The position numbers and the translations under genes were made by a program. Shown here one piece after another: positions 41,048 through 53,586 of a stretch of 64,000 bases of DNA. Every line of letters begins with the position of its first letter. The first letter of the stretch is position 1. The notes below the pieces were generated by a model that worked only from the letters and a program-made list of their open reading frames with translations, had not been told where the DNA came from and did not search any database. Origin of the DNA: Ureibacillus manganicus DSM 26584 (lineage in GTDB: Bacteria; Bacillota; Bacilli; Bacillales_A; Planococcaceae); the NCBI RefSeq assembly GCF_000772945.1, contig NZ_JPVN01000003.1, forward strand, positions 124,001-188,000, read 5' to 3'.

Positions 41048-42349
41048 TTGAAAATCAAAATTGGTGCAATTGGGGCAGTGGATTCATTAAAAAAGTTAGT
41101 AGAAGTAGCATCTAAAGACAACAGGATTCAATTAATCGGTTTTCCTTATGACAATTATGATGAACTAACAAACATATTAAGAGAAAATAAAACAAAAGTA
41201 GATCAATGGATATTCTCAGGTCAGTATCCCTATGATTATGCGATCAGACATCAAATAATCAATGAAGAAGATGGAAGTTTTCCACCACTTCATGGTATTA
41301 GTTTTCTTGGAACTTTCCTAAAAATTATTAAGGAAAGAGGTCATTTCGTATCAAAAATCAGCTTAGATACGATCGATAAAAAAATTGTTCAACAATTGTT
41401 ATCTGAATTTTCACTGGAGGATTGTTTAATTTCCTTTTCTTCTTATGAATACGATAAATCGTATGAAGAAATTGTTGCTTTTCATGTAGAGCAGCATCGA
41501 TTAGGAAATTCTGAAGTCGCTATTACAGGTTTTTTATCCGTTTATTTAGAACTTACAAAACGAAACATACCCTGTTACCGTTTAGTCCCTTCCGAACTTG
41601 CTATTCAAAAAGAGCTAGACTTATTGGTTACTAGAGCTCAGTCGCAATTGTACGAAAACTCAAAGGTTACGATTATTGGTATTGATGTACTAGAAAATAA
41701 CCAACAGTACACGATTTATGAGAAACAAAAACAAAGTCTAGAACTAGAACGTGAATTATTAGAGCTAACAGAAAAGTTGAATGGTAGTTTAAGAAAAGAA
41801 AGTGGTCGCGTTTATATCTACACGACACATGGCGATTTCGAATTATCGCTTATTGATGAATCAATACTCCAAACGATTCGTGAAATCCAACTTTCCACAA
41901 ATGTAGAAATGAATATTGGAGTTGGCTCTGGTTATACGGTCTATGAGGCAAAAATGAACTCAAATCTCGCTTGTGAGGAAGGTAAACAGCGAGAAGGGTC
42001 TAACATGATCTACATAGATGAAAATAAAAAACTACAGGATATATTGAATCGAGATATAAATTCCGATACACTTCCTGAACTTTGGCAGGAAACATTTAAA
42101 AAGCATAACTATAATGCTACTATTCCATTGAAAATCTATCGATATATAAAATTAAAGCAAATAAACCAATTCGGAAGCGATCTAATCACGAATCTATTAA
42201 AAAATACAGACCGCAACACACGACGTATTTTAAGTGATTTAGAAAAAATGGGACTTCTAGAATCAGTGGATGAGGAACCATTAGGAAAACGAGGAAGGCC
42301 GAAGAAGATTTATACGATCGTAACGGAGATAAATTCAGCTATAATTTAA
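41048..42349 (+). CDS. Transcriptional regulator with degenerate GGDEF-like and winged-helix domains
   Basis: The 433-residue protein starts at TTG 41048, 10 nt from AGGAGAG. Three parts are visible: an N-terminal sensor (KIGAIGAVDSLKKLVEVAS onwards), a middle GGDEF/cyclase-like segment (FELSLIDESILQTIREIQLSTNVEMNIGVGSGYTVYEAK) without the GGDEF active site, and a C-terminal winged helix (NTRRILSDLEKMGLLESVDE ... GKRGRPKKIY). This architecture occurs in Bacillus regulators near peptide or amino-acid catabolic genes. The ligand and targets are unknown; either the preceding M20/SBP run or the following groEL could be under its control. Confidence 0.65.
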   Translation: MKIKIGAIGAVDSLKKLVEVASKDNRIQLIGFPYDNYDELTNILRENKTKVDQWIFSGQYPYDYAIRHQIINEEDGSFPPLHGISFLGTFLKIIKERGHFVSKISLDTIDKKIVQQLLSEFSLEDCLISFSSYEYDKSYEEIVAFHVEQHRLGNSEVAITGFLSVYLELTKRNIPCYRLVPSELAIQKELDLLVTRAQSQLYENSKVTIIGIDVLENNQQYTIYEKQKQSLELERELLELTEKLNGSLRKESGRVYIYTTHGDFELSLIDESILQTIREIQLSTNVEMNIGVGSGYTVYEAKMNSNLACEEGKQREGSNMIYIDENKKLQDILNRDINSDTLPELWQETFKKHNYNATIPLKIYRYIKLKQINQFGSDLITNLLKNTDRNTRRILSDLEKMGLLESVDEEPLGKRGRPKKIYTIVTEINSAII

Positions 42350-42446
42350 AGATTGGTTTGATGATGGTATAAAGGCTCAGATAAAGTGGGAATTTCTAAT
42401 AAGTTCGAAGTAATTTTTAGTAAACTAAATAGGACTTTCCCCTGTC

Positions 42447-42485
42447 AACGTCAAGACCCTTGCTAAATAAGGGTTTTGGCGTTTT
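42447..42485 (+). terminator. Terminator after the regulator gene
   Basis: A 15-bp stem with G-U pairs (42447-42461 with 42468-42482; AACGTCAAGACCCTT / AAGGGTTTTGGCGTT) followed by T. Confidence 0.85.
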
Positions 42486-42602
42486 CATTAAACTGCAAAA
42501 CTTTGATAATCTCAGAGGTTTGGCGTATTTTTCTATCTTGAAAAATCCGAAAGAGAAAGCTAGAAGTAAGTATTTTTTAAAAAAAACAGAATTTTCCCAA
42601 GA

Positions 42603-42880
42603 TTGACAATTTTATAAGCTGTTTGTATATTTTAAATACGGAATGAAATTCCTTATAAGGGAAAGGTCCGAAAATATATTGATTGTTTATTAAACAATTA
42701 AAAACTGATAATACGAAGTAGTTTAGTAGAAAACAAATGAAAGTACTGCCCTAATTATGAAAAAATAAGGGGAACTTAATAATTATTTTAATTTCCATTC
42801 GAAAATTTTTCGTCTTTATGGCAACTATCATTTCATAATCCATTCATGATAAAAAGAAGCAATAGGGGGTATACGTAATT
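42603..42880 (+). promoter_or_regulatory. Promoter and long leader of the solo groEL
   Basis: TTGACA (42603-42608) and TATATT (42626-42631) with a 17-bp spacer form a strong sigma-A promoter. The leader is about 240 nt and contains small inverted repeats near 42640-42675 (GGAAT/ATTCC, TTCCTTATAAGGGAA). No CIRCE element (TTAGCACTC-N9-GAGTGCTAA) is present, so HrcA control is unlikely. I recognise no riboswitch class. Confidence 0.55.
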
Positions 42881-51546: not shown

Positions 51547-52347
51547 ATGGTAATTCGGAATACAGAAAAGAAAGCAAGCTTAGTACCCGCATTGGATTCT
51601 TCTTTGAAAATATTGGAATTATTAGCAAAGCAAGAATATCATTCAGCTACTCTTACGGAAATTTCAAGTGCTACTTCGATTAATACAAGTACTTGCTTAC
51701 GAATTTTGAGAACGTTGGAAGAAAAAAGCTATGTTGTATTTGAGCCGGGGGCGAAAACTTATTCGCTAGGAGCTCCGCTAATTGCACTTGGCAATAGAGC
51801 GAAAGAAGTAAATGATTATATTCAAGTTGCAAGCGTTTATTTAAAGGAACTTGTGAAAACGGGATTTACTTTTGTTCTAGTGAAGCGAATCCGTGAAACG
51901 AGTTTAATGTATGTGGCAAAAGAAGAACCATCATTAAAAGTACGATTGACGGTTTCAATGGGAGACTCTTTCCCAATAACAGCGGGAGCTCTTGGGAAAT
52001 GTTTTTATGCATTTTTACCTGATAAGGAAGCGGAAGAAGTACTTAAAAAACTAATTGTAGATAATCAACTACCTCAATACACAAAAAATTCACTTTTGAC
52101 ATTGGAAGAGTTGAAGAATCAAACTCAAAAAATTCGTGGAGAACTTATTGCAGAAAGTCACGAAGAATATTCTCTTGGAATTTCAGCATTTGCATGTCCA
52201 ATTTTTGATAGCAATGGTGAAATTGTGTTAGGCCTTGGTACATATATACCAAAGTCTATAATCGGAGAGATCAACGTAGAAGATCTTAAAAGTATTATGA
52301 AAAAAGTTGCTCAAGAAATTACAGAAGCCATTTCTACACTTGTATAA
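51547..52347 (+). CDS. IclR-family transcriptional regulator
   Basis: The 266-residue protein has an N-terminal winged helix (VPALDSSLKILELLAKQ, SINTSTCLRILRTLEEKSYV) and a C-terminal IclR effector domain (ITAGALGKCFYAFLPD, GISAFACPIFDSNGEIVLGLG). IclR proteins usually control adjacent aromatic or carboxylate catabolic operons. The ATG at 51547 is spaced 8 nt from AGAGG; a GTG at 51538 overlaps that site. It is the likely sensor for the dioxygenase-BKACE pathway. Confidence 0.9.
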   Translation: MVIRNTEKKASLVPALDSSLKILELLAKQEYHSATLTEISSATSINTSTCLRILRTLEEKSYVVFEPGAKTYSLGAPLIALGNRAKEVNDYIQVASVYLKELVKTGFTFVLVKRIRETSLMYVAKEEPSLKVRLTVSMGDSFPITAGALGKCFYAFLPDKEAEEVLKKLIVDNQLPQYTKNSLLTLEELKNQTQKIRGELIAESHEEYSLGISAFACPIFDSNGEIVLGLGTYIPKSIIGEINVEDLKSIMKKVAQEITEAISTLV

Positions 52348-52362
52348 CCAAATATTAGATAG

Positions 52363-52397
52363 AAAGTTTTGCCCAGTGCCGGGGTAGAACTTTTTTT
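52363..52397 (+). terminator. Terminator of the iclR gene
   Basis: AAAGTTTTGCCC pairs with GGGGTAGAACTTT (interior loop), then seven T. Confidence 0.75.
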
Positions 52398-52647
52398 AAT
52401 AATAACGAGATTACCAAATACAGTCTGTTATTTTTGTATCAAAAAACTGGAAGTAAATTAGTTATTTCTGTATATAAAAATGGATTTCATATATGAAATT
52501 GTGGTAAACTGAATGTAAAGAAATCTCAACTTCATTTCTCAAATTACTAGTAACAGGACATTTACTGAATTGCCTTAATCAAACAAAAGATTTATATGCA
52601 TAAGAATATTTGCAAGCAATTATAGAGTAATAAAGGAGCGAAGTATT

Positions 52648-53586
52648 ATGAAAGAAACAGAGAAGAAAGAATGTGAGCTTGTAGAAGGGAAATATATTCG
52701 AAGAAATATTGAATTTAATGCAGAGGGGACGATTCTTCGTGGATGGTTCTATTTACCAAATACGAATGAATTGAGATTTCCTACTATAATAATGGCACAT
52801 GGATTCGGTTCTTTGAAGGAGATGCACTTGGATCGTTTTGCGCAAACTTTTGCAGTAAATGGCTTTGCTTCAATTTTATTTGATTATAGTAATTTTGGAG
52901 ATAGTGATGGGCAACCTCGAGGGGAAATTAATCCTTGGAGACAAATAGAAGAATACAAACATGCCATTACATTTGCCACGACATTAGCTGAAGTTGATAC
53001 AGAAAAAATTGGGGTTTGGGGAACGAGCTACAGTGGAGGACATGTGCTTGTTGTTGGTGCATCAGATCATCGTGTGAAGTGTGTGGTATCACAAGTTCCG
53101 ACTATCAGTGGTAGTGAAAGTTCTTTACGCAGAGTTCCTGCTGAAAAAGTCGAAACTCTTTACGAGGAATTTAGACAGGATCGAGTTAATCGAATGCTTG
53201 GGAAGCAACCGATAAAAAGGACTCTAGTCTCAAATAATATTGAGGATAATCCAGTATATGGAACCGCTGAAGCATTAGAATGGTATTTGACATCTGGGGA
53301 AAAATCTCCAAATTGGACAAATGAAGTGACGTTACGTTCCATTGAATATTCGCGAACTTACAATCCAGGTACATTTATTTCCCTTGTAAGTCCGAAACCA
53401 CTGTTATTATTGGTGGGAACTGATGATAACGTAACACCAACGGATCTCGCTTTAAATGCCTATGAAGCAGCTCTGGAACCGAAGAAGTTAGTACTAATTC
53501 AGGGTGGTCATTTTGATCCGTATATAAAGAAATTCGATATTGCCAGCAAGGAAGCGATTGAGTGGTTTACAAAGCACTTACAGTAA
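52648..53586 (+). CDS. Alpha/beta hydrolase, FrsA/YcjY-like
   Basis: The 312-residue protein contains LRGWFYLPN, IIMAHGFGSLKEMHLDRFA, the nucleophile GTSYSGGHVL, acid LLVGTDDNVTP and His in GGHFDPYIKKF, a complete catalytic triad with a lid insertion (about residues 165-240). It may hydrolyse an ester or thioester of the catabolic pathway. It has its own upstream region and AAAGGAG; a 300-bp gap separates it from iclR. Substrate unknown. Confidence 0.85.
   Translation: MKETEKKECELVEGKYIRRNIEFNAEGTILRGWFYLPNTNELRFPTIIMAHGFGSLKEMHLDRFAQTFAVNGFASILFDYSNFGDSDGQPRGEINPWRQIEEYKHAITFATTLAEVDTEKIGVWGTSYSGGHVLVVGASDHRVKCVVSQVPTISGSESSLRRVPAEKVETLYEEFRQDRVNRMLGKQPIKRTLVSNNIEDNPVYGTAEALEWYLTSGEKSPNWTNEVTLRSIEYSRTYNPGTFISLVSPKPLLLLVGTDDNVTPTDLALNAYEAALEPKKLVLIQGGHFDPYIKKFDIASKEAIEWFTKHLQ

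Follow-up and report, generated by a model that had tools for sequence, protein, structure and literature searches.

A probable carboxylate gene cluster of Ureibacillus manganicus built on a carotenoid cleavage dioxygenase-family oxygenase, with a β-keto acid cleavage enzyme and a His-tailed GroEL

Alkene cleavage by bacterial enzymes of the four-His carotenoid cleavage dioxygenase (CCD) fold is represented by LSD, NOV1, and the isoeugenol-cleaving carotenoid cleavage oxygenases (CCOs), and the functions of most bacterial proteins of the carotenoid oxygenase family are reported to be unresolved (PMC6700365). GroEL paralogues encoded beside iron oxygenases have been described for MmoG and the mycobacterial monooxygenases (PMC7994243, PMC6849523); according to one of these reports, binuclear iron monooxygenases require GroEL-like chaperonins (PMC7994243). 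The β-keto acid cleavage enzymes (BKACEs) form the family of Kce and its relatives. Here we describe nine genes, all on the plus strand within positions 42881–53586 of a 64,000-nucleotide stretch of Ureibacillus manganicus DSM 26584 (positions 124,001 to 188,000 of contig NZ_JPVN01000003.1, hereafter the window; source assembly 4.05 Mb in 81 contigs), located by profile searches of its open reading frames (ORFs). They encode a GroEL-type chaperonin, the complete tripartite tricarboxylate transporter set TctABC, an oxygenase that we call OX, a BKACE, the α/β hydrolases abH2 and abH8, and an IclR-family regulator (Table 1), and every gene named in a first-pass annotation of this DNA was found there in this orientation.

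The best reading of these genes is a carboxylate catabolic cluster built on a CCD oxygenase, extended by a BKACE branch and, probably, by a chaperonin of its own. The gene set appears to import an acid and cut one of its C=C bonds, which suggests an undescribed degradation pathway; such a cluster was not found in the literature searched, among the matches listed. We lean toward the fuller account of a catabolic cluster that spreads by horizontal transfer and acts on an unsaturated carboxylate, in which substrate passes from TctABC to OX to BKACE and a His-tailed GroEL folds OX.

OX belongs to the RPE65/CCD family by profile and by fold. Foldseek gave probability 1.00 and TMq values of 0.74–0.82 among the 50 matches listed for an AlphaFold2 model built from 26 sequences (mean pLDDT 85.6, pTM 0.89; residues 122–134 poorly modelled). 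The four intact His ligands recognized in the first-pass annotation are His183, His231, His295, and His481, which are conserved throughout a 36-row alignment wherever a row extends to them; the second-shell residues Glu368 and Glu423 are also kept. The residue that shields the sixth iron site is Thr in 30/35 rows and Val in 5/35, and the T151V variant of CAO1 is reported to have a nearly unchanged iron site (PMC12051055). Plant CCD1 (Osmanthus fragrans) is the best match in both sequence and fold (256.7 bits, TMq about 0.8), followed in the Foldseek order by LSD, NOV1, ACO, and CAO1. Identity to CCD1 is about 30%, however, and OX, in contrast to the plant enzyme, sits in a bacterial cluster with an acid importer.

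The bacterial alkene-cleaving enzymes share the four-His fold with OX, which raises the alternative that OX cleaves stilbenes or p-hydroxyphenylpropenoids and that the cluster degrades lignin-type acids. The positions of LSD, NOV1, and CAO1 behind CCD1 in the Foldseek order fit this proposal, as do PadR-like regulators and P450 genes near OX at 8/30 and 5/30 loci of the survey described below; for the single P450 compared, the closest matches are 5xjn/5gwe, followed by 6kbh, 6ldl, and 6ro8, which are CreJ and CYP116B enzymes. The residues of OX argue otherwise. Tyr-101 and Lys-134, the phenol-binding pair of LSD (PMC8191317), are replaced by Met/Ile/Leu and Ser/Thr in 29/29 rows of the OX clade, although this pair is that of LSD and may not apply to the isoeugenol enzymes. 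Loss of the pair makes stilbenes or p-hydroxycinnamates improbable substrates of OX and the 4-hydroxystilbene binding mode unlikely. We rejected lignostilbene-type substrate binding, and the earlier suggestion of a phenylpropanoid or stilbene substrate bound in that mode is not supported. The NCBIfam LSD models reach only 242/800 and 197/650 on OX, below their cut-offs, and the aldehyde dehydrogenase (ALDH) of the related Neobacillus locus L019 is nearest to SSADH among the best 25 of 43 models (609 of 646 on the SSADH model). OX further differs from these enzymes in having Gln in place of one second-shell Glu and in its linkage to Tct and BKACE genes. Overall, we judge the lignin-type alternative improbable.

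The BKACE of the window shares the family profile and zinc-site motif with Kce and its relatives. HLH 52–54, R228, and E232, the residues of this motif, are kept in alignment with 2y7d (solved Kce), in line with the zinc residues claimed in the first-pass annotation. Within the family, it stands in a clade of its own tied to OX, and it scores under all four matched NCBIfam cut-offs (299/382, 230/350, 206/725, and 179/430).

Co-localization of the two enzymes, on which the first-pass annotation had staked its proposal, is conserved. Among 261 genomes of the family scanned, 8/8 with the OX clade of the window carry a BKACE on the OX contig, and the addition of Neobacillus citreus brings the pairing to nine genomes in five genera. 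The two genes lie about 0.1–1.1 kb apart in the window, G194, G196, G229, G132, G182, and G001, and 18 kb apart in G198; the G196 match holds one in-frame TGA. In G001 (L100, 9200–9739), OX is cut to 179 residues, and abH2 and BKACE still adjoin. Co-occurrence over the 261 genomes, with 15 counted as having a BKACE match of at least 45%, gives a Fisher p of 1.3e-11, ignoring phylogeny. A second OX clade, at 44% identity, has no BKACE match in 6/6 genomes. A pairing of the BKACE and carotenoid-oxygenase families was likewise not found among the literature matches listed, which agrees with the first-pass view that no described pathway joins them.

Phylogenetic trees support this association. A tree of 32 BKACEs unites all OX-linked ones (9/9) in one clade (support 99/97) apart from 23 others, and an enlarged tree with 11 further rows does so against 34 others (100/98; 200/200 bootstrap trees). 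These trees omit the full-length 36–37% matches of G084, G113, G116, G123, and G124 and the short weak matches of G088, G104, and G108. Additional BKACEs of G132 and G229 lie outside the OX-linked clade. The OX partners of this clade occupy two places on the OX tree, with at least four changes forced by its starred branches. The pairing is therefore not a single frozen block; that one BKACE lineage goes with two OX lineages favours a working partnership, although repeated loss could also explain it. The OX-less BKACE clusters, labelled carnitine-type, share the enzyme; they lack OX and fall outside the OX-linked BKACE clade. At the six such loci examined, 3HCDH-like genes adjoin BKACE in 3/6 (L138, L139, and L142), thioesterase and scoAB CoA-transferase genes in 1/6 (L141), and neither set in L137 and L140 (L138–L141 appear in the BKACE tree as L073, L076, L078, and L079).

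We surveyed gene families within about 11 kb of OX at 30 loci (29 and the window) from Bacillota and Pseudomonadota, several of them limited by contig ends; family labels come from blastp to our own reference set and do not imply orthology. Recurrent families are TctC (22 loci), abH2 (19), abH3 (14), SDR (14), TctA (13), TctB (13), ALDH (13), IclR (11), GroEL (10), BKACE (8), PadR (8), abH8 (8), thiolase (7), CoA ligase (6), P450 (5), HxlR (5), and CoA-transferase III (4). The wider core is OX, the Tct genes, hydrolases, an aldehyde dehydrogenase, and an SDR. The recurrent catabolic-looking cluster of the first-pass annotation is thus borne out, whereas BKACE is not a general member of it, as its eight loci are all from Bacillota; the ninth BKACE (G198) lies beyond the survey limit. 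A CoA ligase or CoA-transferase together with a thiolase is frequent at loci without BKACE. In the 44% OX clade, for example, OX adjoins CoA ligase, thiolase, sigma-54 activator, and abH8 genes (L101–L103), with a FabK/NMO-like gene at two of the three loci. Either BKACE or CoA activation followed by a thiolase can process a β-keto acid, and the tendency of the two solutions to swap around OX is our chief ground for proposing such an acid downstream of OX.

The CCD1-like sequence and fold of OX, together with an apocarotenoid dioxygenase as its best NCBIfam model (267 of 675, i.e., below cut-off), could also mean that OX cleaves the cell's own carotenoids or water-insoluble apocarotenoids and merely adjoins the Tct and BKACE genes. 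The survey gives this explanation little room, as TctC recurs at 22/30 loci and TctA/B at 13/30 in two phyla, and the OX-linked BKACE clade runs counter to it as well. No carotenoid synthesis family is among the 20 recurrent families annotated, many other ORFs being unannotated. We consider chance adjacency of a carotenoid-cleaving enzyme to have a low probability.

The distribution of OX is patchy. Homologues occur in 14/261 family genomes, 8 in the clade of the window (at least 56% identity) and 6 in the 44% clade, and within the genus only the window's genome has OX (24 congeners listed). A wider sample of 398 genomes from the class yielded 8 matches, six of them already found, one at 46%, and the last marginal. 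Scanning named genomes gave 24 OX loci at 56–85% identity, namely one in Neobacillus citreus, six in Sporosarcina P13, one in Sporosarcina P32b, and 16 in Pseudomonadota, 13 of which come from metagenome assemblies with possibly incorrect species names. The OX tree places a Halieaceae sequence as sister to the Bacillota group containing the window, and Sporosarcina L028 clusters with Rhodobacterales-type and Rhizobiaceae rows. This patchy spread and mixing of phyla point to movement of the OX cluster by horizontal transfer. The six OX genes of the clade in Sporosarcina P13 (L020, L021, L022, L025, L027, and L028) stand in differing settings, and L021 and L027 share one contig beside a β-oxidation block.

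A pathway can be proposed from the families involved. TctABC would import the acid, and OX, judging from its four-His site, would use O2 to split a C=C bond into two carbonyl products. One fragment would be an oxo-acid, oxidized by the SSADH-like ALDH of related clusters, which lies outside the window's gene set. The other, directly or after hydrolysis by abH2 or abH8, would be a β-keto acid that BKACE converts with acetyl-CoA to acetoacetate and an acyl-CoA. A scoAB-type CoA-transferase would then recover the acetoacetate; a scoB-type enzyme occurs twice elsewhere in the genome (78%), so that such recovery is conceivable, and scoAB-type genes are linked in G182 and G198. IclR would control the tct–OX promoter, and the His-tailed GroEL, found in association with OX, may act with housekeeping GroES as its dedicated folding helper. 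NCBIfam, Pfam, and PDB comparisons assigned no substrate to BKACE, ALDH, or the hydrolases. One candidate is a plant isoprenoid acid of the abscisic or apocarotenoid type, cut into a methyl-oxo-butenoate for ALDH and a ring fragment that leads to the β-keto acid. A CCD1-like OX beside a carboxylate importer, the SSADH-like ALDH, and the β-oxidation genes of some clusters would suit it; on the other hand, this chemistry is an example of our own devising, and our literature search on bacterial abscisic acid catabolism found nothing on such a route among the matches listed. We hold this substrate to be unlikely, if somewhat less so than the two preceding alternatives.

The chaperonin of the window ends in MGGMHHHH without the Gly-Met-rich C-terminal tail, and because that tail is missing we file it as a GroEL paralogue and not as the standard folding GroEL. 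The second GroEL of the genome is 71% identical to it and has the usual tail. Equivalents of Asp87 and Asp398, the catalytic residues in E. coli numbering, are present in 20/20 GroELs aligned. The ten OX-neighbour GroELs of the survey are all from Bacillota; nine have 3–6 His among their last 15 residues, and the tenth (L027) belongs to a groES–groEL pair with the usual Gly-Met tail. His is absent from 36/36 other GroEL tails examined, L027 included, a set that is not random and consists mostly of the best-scoring loci of the GroEL scan. The L028 copy, which has groES beside it, has two close relatives that likewise carry His tails, one in G229 and one in G196. More than one GroEL match occurs in 7/8 OX-clade genomes versus 16/253 others (counts include fragments), the exception being G001, where OX is truncated and the GroEL match single. 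On the distribution of His tails and the extra GroEL matches in OX genomes, we rejected GroEL as a chance neighbour of OX. The solo chaperonin noted at first pass was underrated there; it is a His-tailed companion of these OX clusters. Beside groES and the His-tailed groEL of G229 (L133, 9082–9357) there is a 91-residue abH2 remnant; the 19 kb read around it contain no OX, as if the cluster had been deleted there.

In the GroEL tree, seven cluster GroELs split from the rest (96/99), and the His-tailed GroELs of G198, L028, and the two relatives of L028 fall outside this group, those of G198 and L028 on the housekeeping side. A tail-free tree requires at least two changes for the His tail, with a single change in 0% of 200 bootstrap trees. 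His-rich tails are reported from actinobacteria, as are divergent roles for paralogues whose tails are atypical (PMC11978752). Mycobacterial GroEL1 resembles the cluster GroEL in being a paralogue with a His-rich C-terminus, whereas the latter is found in Bacillota and linked to one enzyme family. The tail of GroEL1 has been studied as a copper ligand, and a role in metal homeostasis rather than folding was predicted for it (PMC10170517). A corresponding role for the cluster GroEL, unrelated to OX folding, seems to us rather unlikely, as the distribution of His-tailed GroELs follows the OX clusters and G001, with its truncated OX, has a single GroEL match.

To us, the most economical reading of the His-tailed GroEL is that it serves OX as a dedicated helper. 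GroEL/ES is reported to have lowered the insoluble fraction of RbCCO, a CCD enzyme, in E. coli (PMC6700365). Like MmoG, the paralogue lies beside an iron oxygenase; it differs in that this oxygenase is a mononuclear four-His CCD and not a binuclear monooxygenase, in its occurrence in Bacillota, and in its His tail. Iron loading of OX by the tail would be a bolder reading. That the paralogue, with a metal-binding His tail, is a private folding and iron-loading chamber of OX that travels with OX and a purpose-evolved BKACE is a speculative proposal, and we doubt it more than we credit it.

Several observations weigh against a mobile pathway with its own chaperonin. Characterized CCDs are reported to be remarkably conserved at seven residues, the four His and three second-shell acidic residues (PMC8191317), and the third second-shell position of OX is Gln151 in 29/29 clade rows (Arg, Lys, or Met in 6 rows of the other OX clade); Glu154, three residues further on in the OX clade rows and Asp in one of them, may be a stand-in that faces His231. 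Neither phylogeny nor shared transfer is taken into account in the p-values. A BKACE match of at least 45% occurs without OX in seven genomes, and at one OX-less locus (L140) TctA and TctC genes lie 4–6 kb from BKACE. BKACE was found in 0/16 Pseudomonadota loci by blastp with the Bacillota BKACEs, several contigs being short. The two downstream solutions are not exclusive, since BKACE coexists with thiolase/3HCDH in G198 and with a distant CoA ligase, 6 kb away, in G001. No ALDH is linked in the window, and the best in the genome is 46% with a stop inside the match. Regarding the chaperonin, groEL looks like a transcript of its own, and a single origin of His tails is not rejected (AU p 0.151). 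E. coli GroEL with an altered tail is reported to be unable to replace GroEL (PMC11978752), so the His tail may fold poorly, and three other CCOs are described as remaining insoluble despite chaperones (PMC6700365).

Table 1. Features of the OX cluster in window coordinates. Paired scores x/y are bits over the gathering or model cut-off (Pfam, NCBIfam).
Feature	Position	Strand	Evidence or remark
Promoter-like TTGACA-N17-TATATT upstream of groEL	42603-42631	+	11/12, consensus match only
GroEL-type chaperonin, 539 aa	42881-44500	+	TIGR02348 776 bits, cut-off 582
Terminator-like hairpin after groEL	44523-44553	+	12-pair stem, T-rich tail
Promoter-like TTGACA-N18-TATAAT before tctB	44701-44730	+	12/12 consensus match
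GGAAAACGTTTTT, IclR-operator-like or cre-like	44740-44752	+	9 bases after -10 box
TctB, small membrane subunit	44800-45249	+	PF07331 56.6/29.1; ATG after AGGGGG, ORF listed from TTG 44782
TctA, large membrane subunit	45266-46792	+	PF01970 418/28.9
TctC, substrate receptor	46861-47865	+	PF03401 164/27
OX, RPE65/CCD-family four-His oxygenase	47956-49443	+	PF03055 437/27
BKACE, OX-linked clade	49543-50397	+	PF05853 309/24.8
α/β hydrolase abH2, PcaD-like, GFSFGG motif	50486-51199	+	near OX in 19/30 loci
IclR-family regulator	51538-52347	+	PF01614 84 bits
α/β hydrolase abH8, UilS/GrgF-like	52648-53586	+	near OX in 8/30 loci

The regulatory signals support part of the first-pass picture of one unit behind one consensus promoter. 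The consensus promoter precedes tctB, and a similar promoter-like site does so in Neobacillus L019; the promoter scan overall gave 39 promoter-like sites versus 43.1 in shuffles, i.e., no excess. The single unit does not hold, as groEL lies upstream of this promoter with a hairpin and promoter-like site of its own, and gaps of 338 and 300 bases precede the IclR gene and the last hydrolase gene. The core of the E. coli IclR motif is GGAAA-N3-TTTCC (PMC8222616), from which the site GGAAAACGTTTTT departs at two positions. This palindrome is exact only in L019, at the corresponding place (2047), and, with up to one mismatch allowed, was not seen upstream of tct in L022, L023, or L095. By eye, the site in the window has about two mismatches to the cre consensus; the cre-like assignment made at first pass is weak, and the palindrome is an alternative to it.

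Between OX and BKACE, an inverted repeat, GCTGGGA...TCCCAGC (49461–49500), was noted by eye; it has no T run and no Rfam match, and Rfam gave no match inside the cluster. The first-pass annotation had begun the cluster at 41048. The protein encoded at 41048–42349 (433–469 aa) has no Pfam match, a weak GTP cyclohydrolase IIa-like stretch, and a C-terminus that looks helix-turn-helix-like by eye. We rejected it as a cluster member, as it adjoins M20 peptidase and SBP5 genes and falls outside the conserved set; one 25% relative lies near the OX remnant of G001. Two M20 peptidases and an SBP_bac_5 solute-binding protein are encoded consecutively at 36491–40646, and a purine riboswitch lies at 30017–30117, followed by an ORF listed at 30060–31568.

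If the speculative reading of a private folding and iron-loading chamber is true, no earlier case of a chaperonin dedicated to a mononuclear CCD would be known within the literature searched, and the pathway would be a new route from alkene cleavage to acetoacetate. The linkage described here connects one OX clade with a transporter, a regulator, a downstream enzyme matched to it, and a chaperonin, such that growth, induction, and TctC binding can be used to look for its substrate. With the His-tailed GroEL, it can be tested directly whether chaperonin tails specialize for metalloenzyme clients, and this GroEL might also help with the poor solubility that several CCD enzymes are reported to show.

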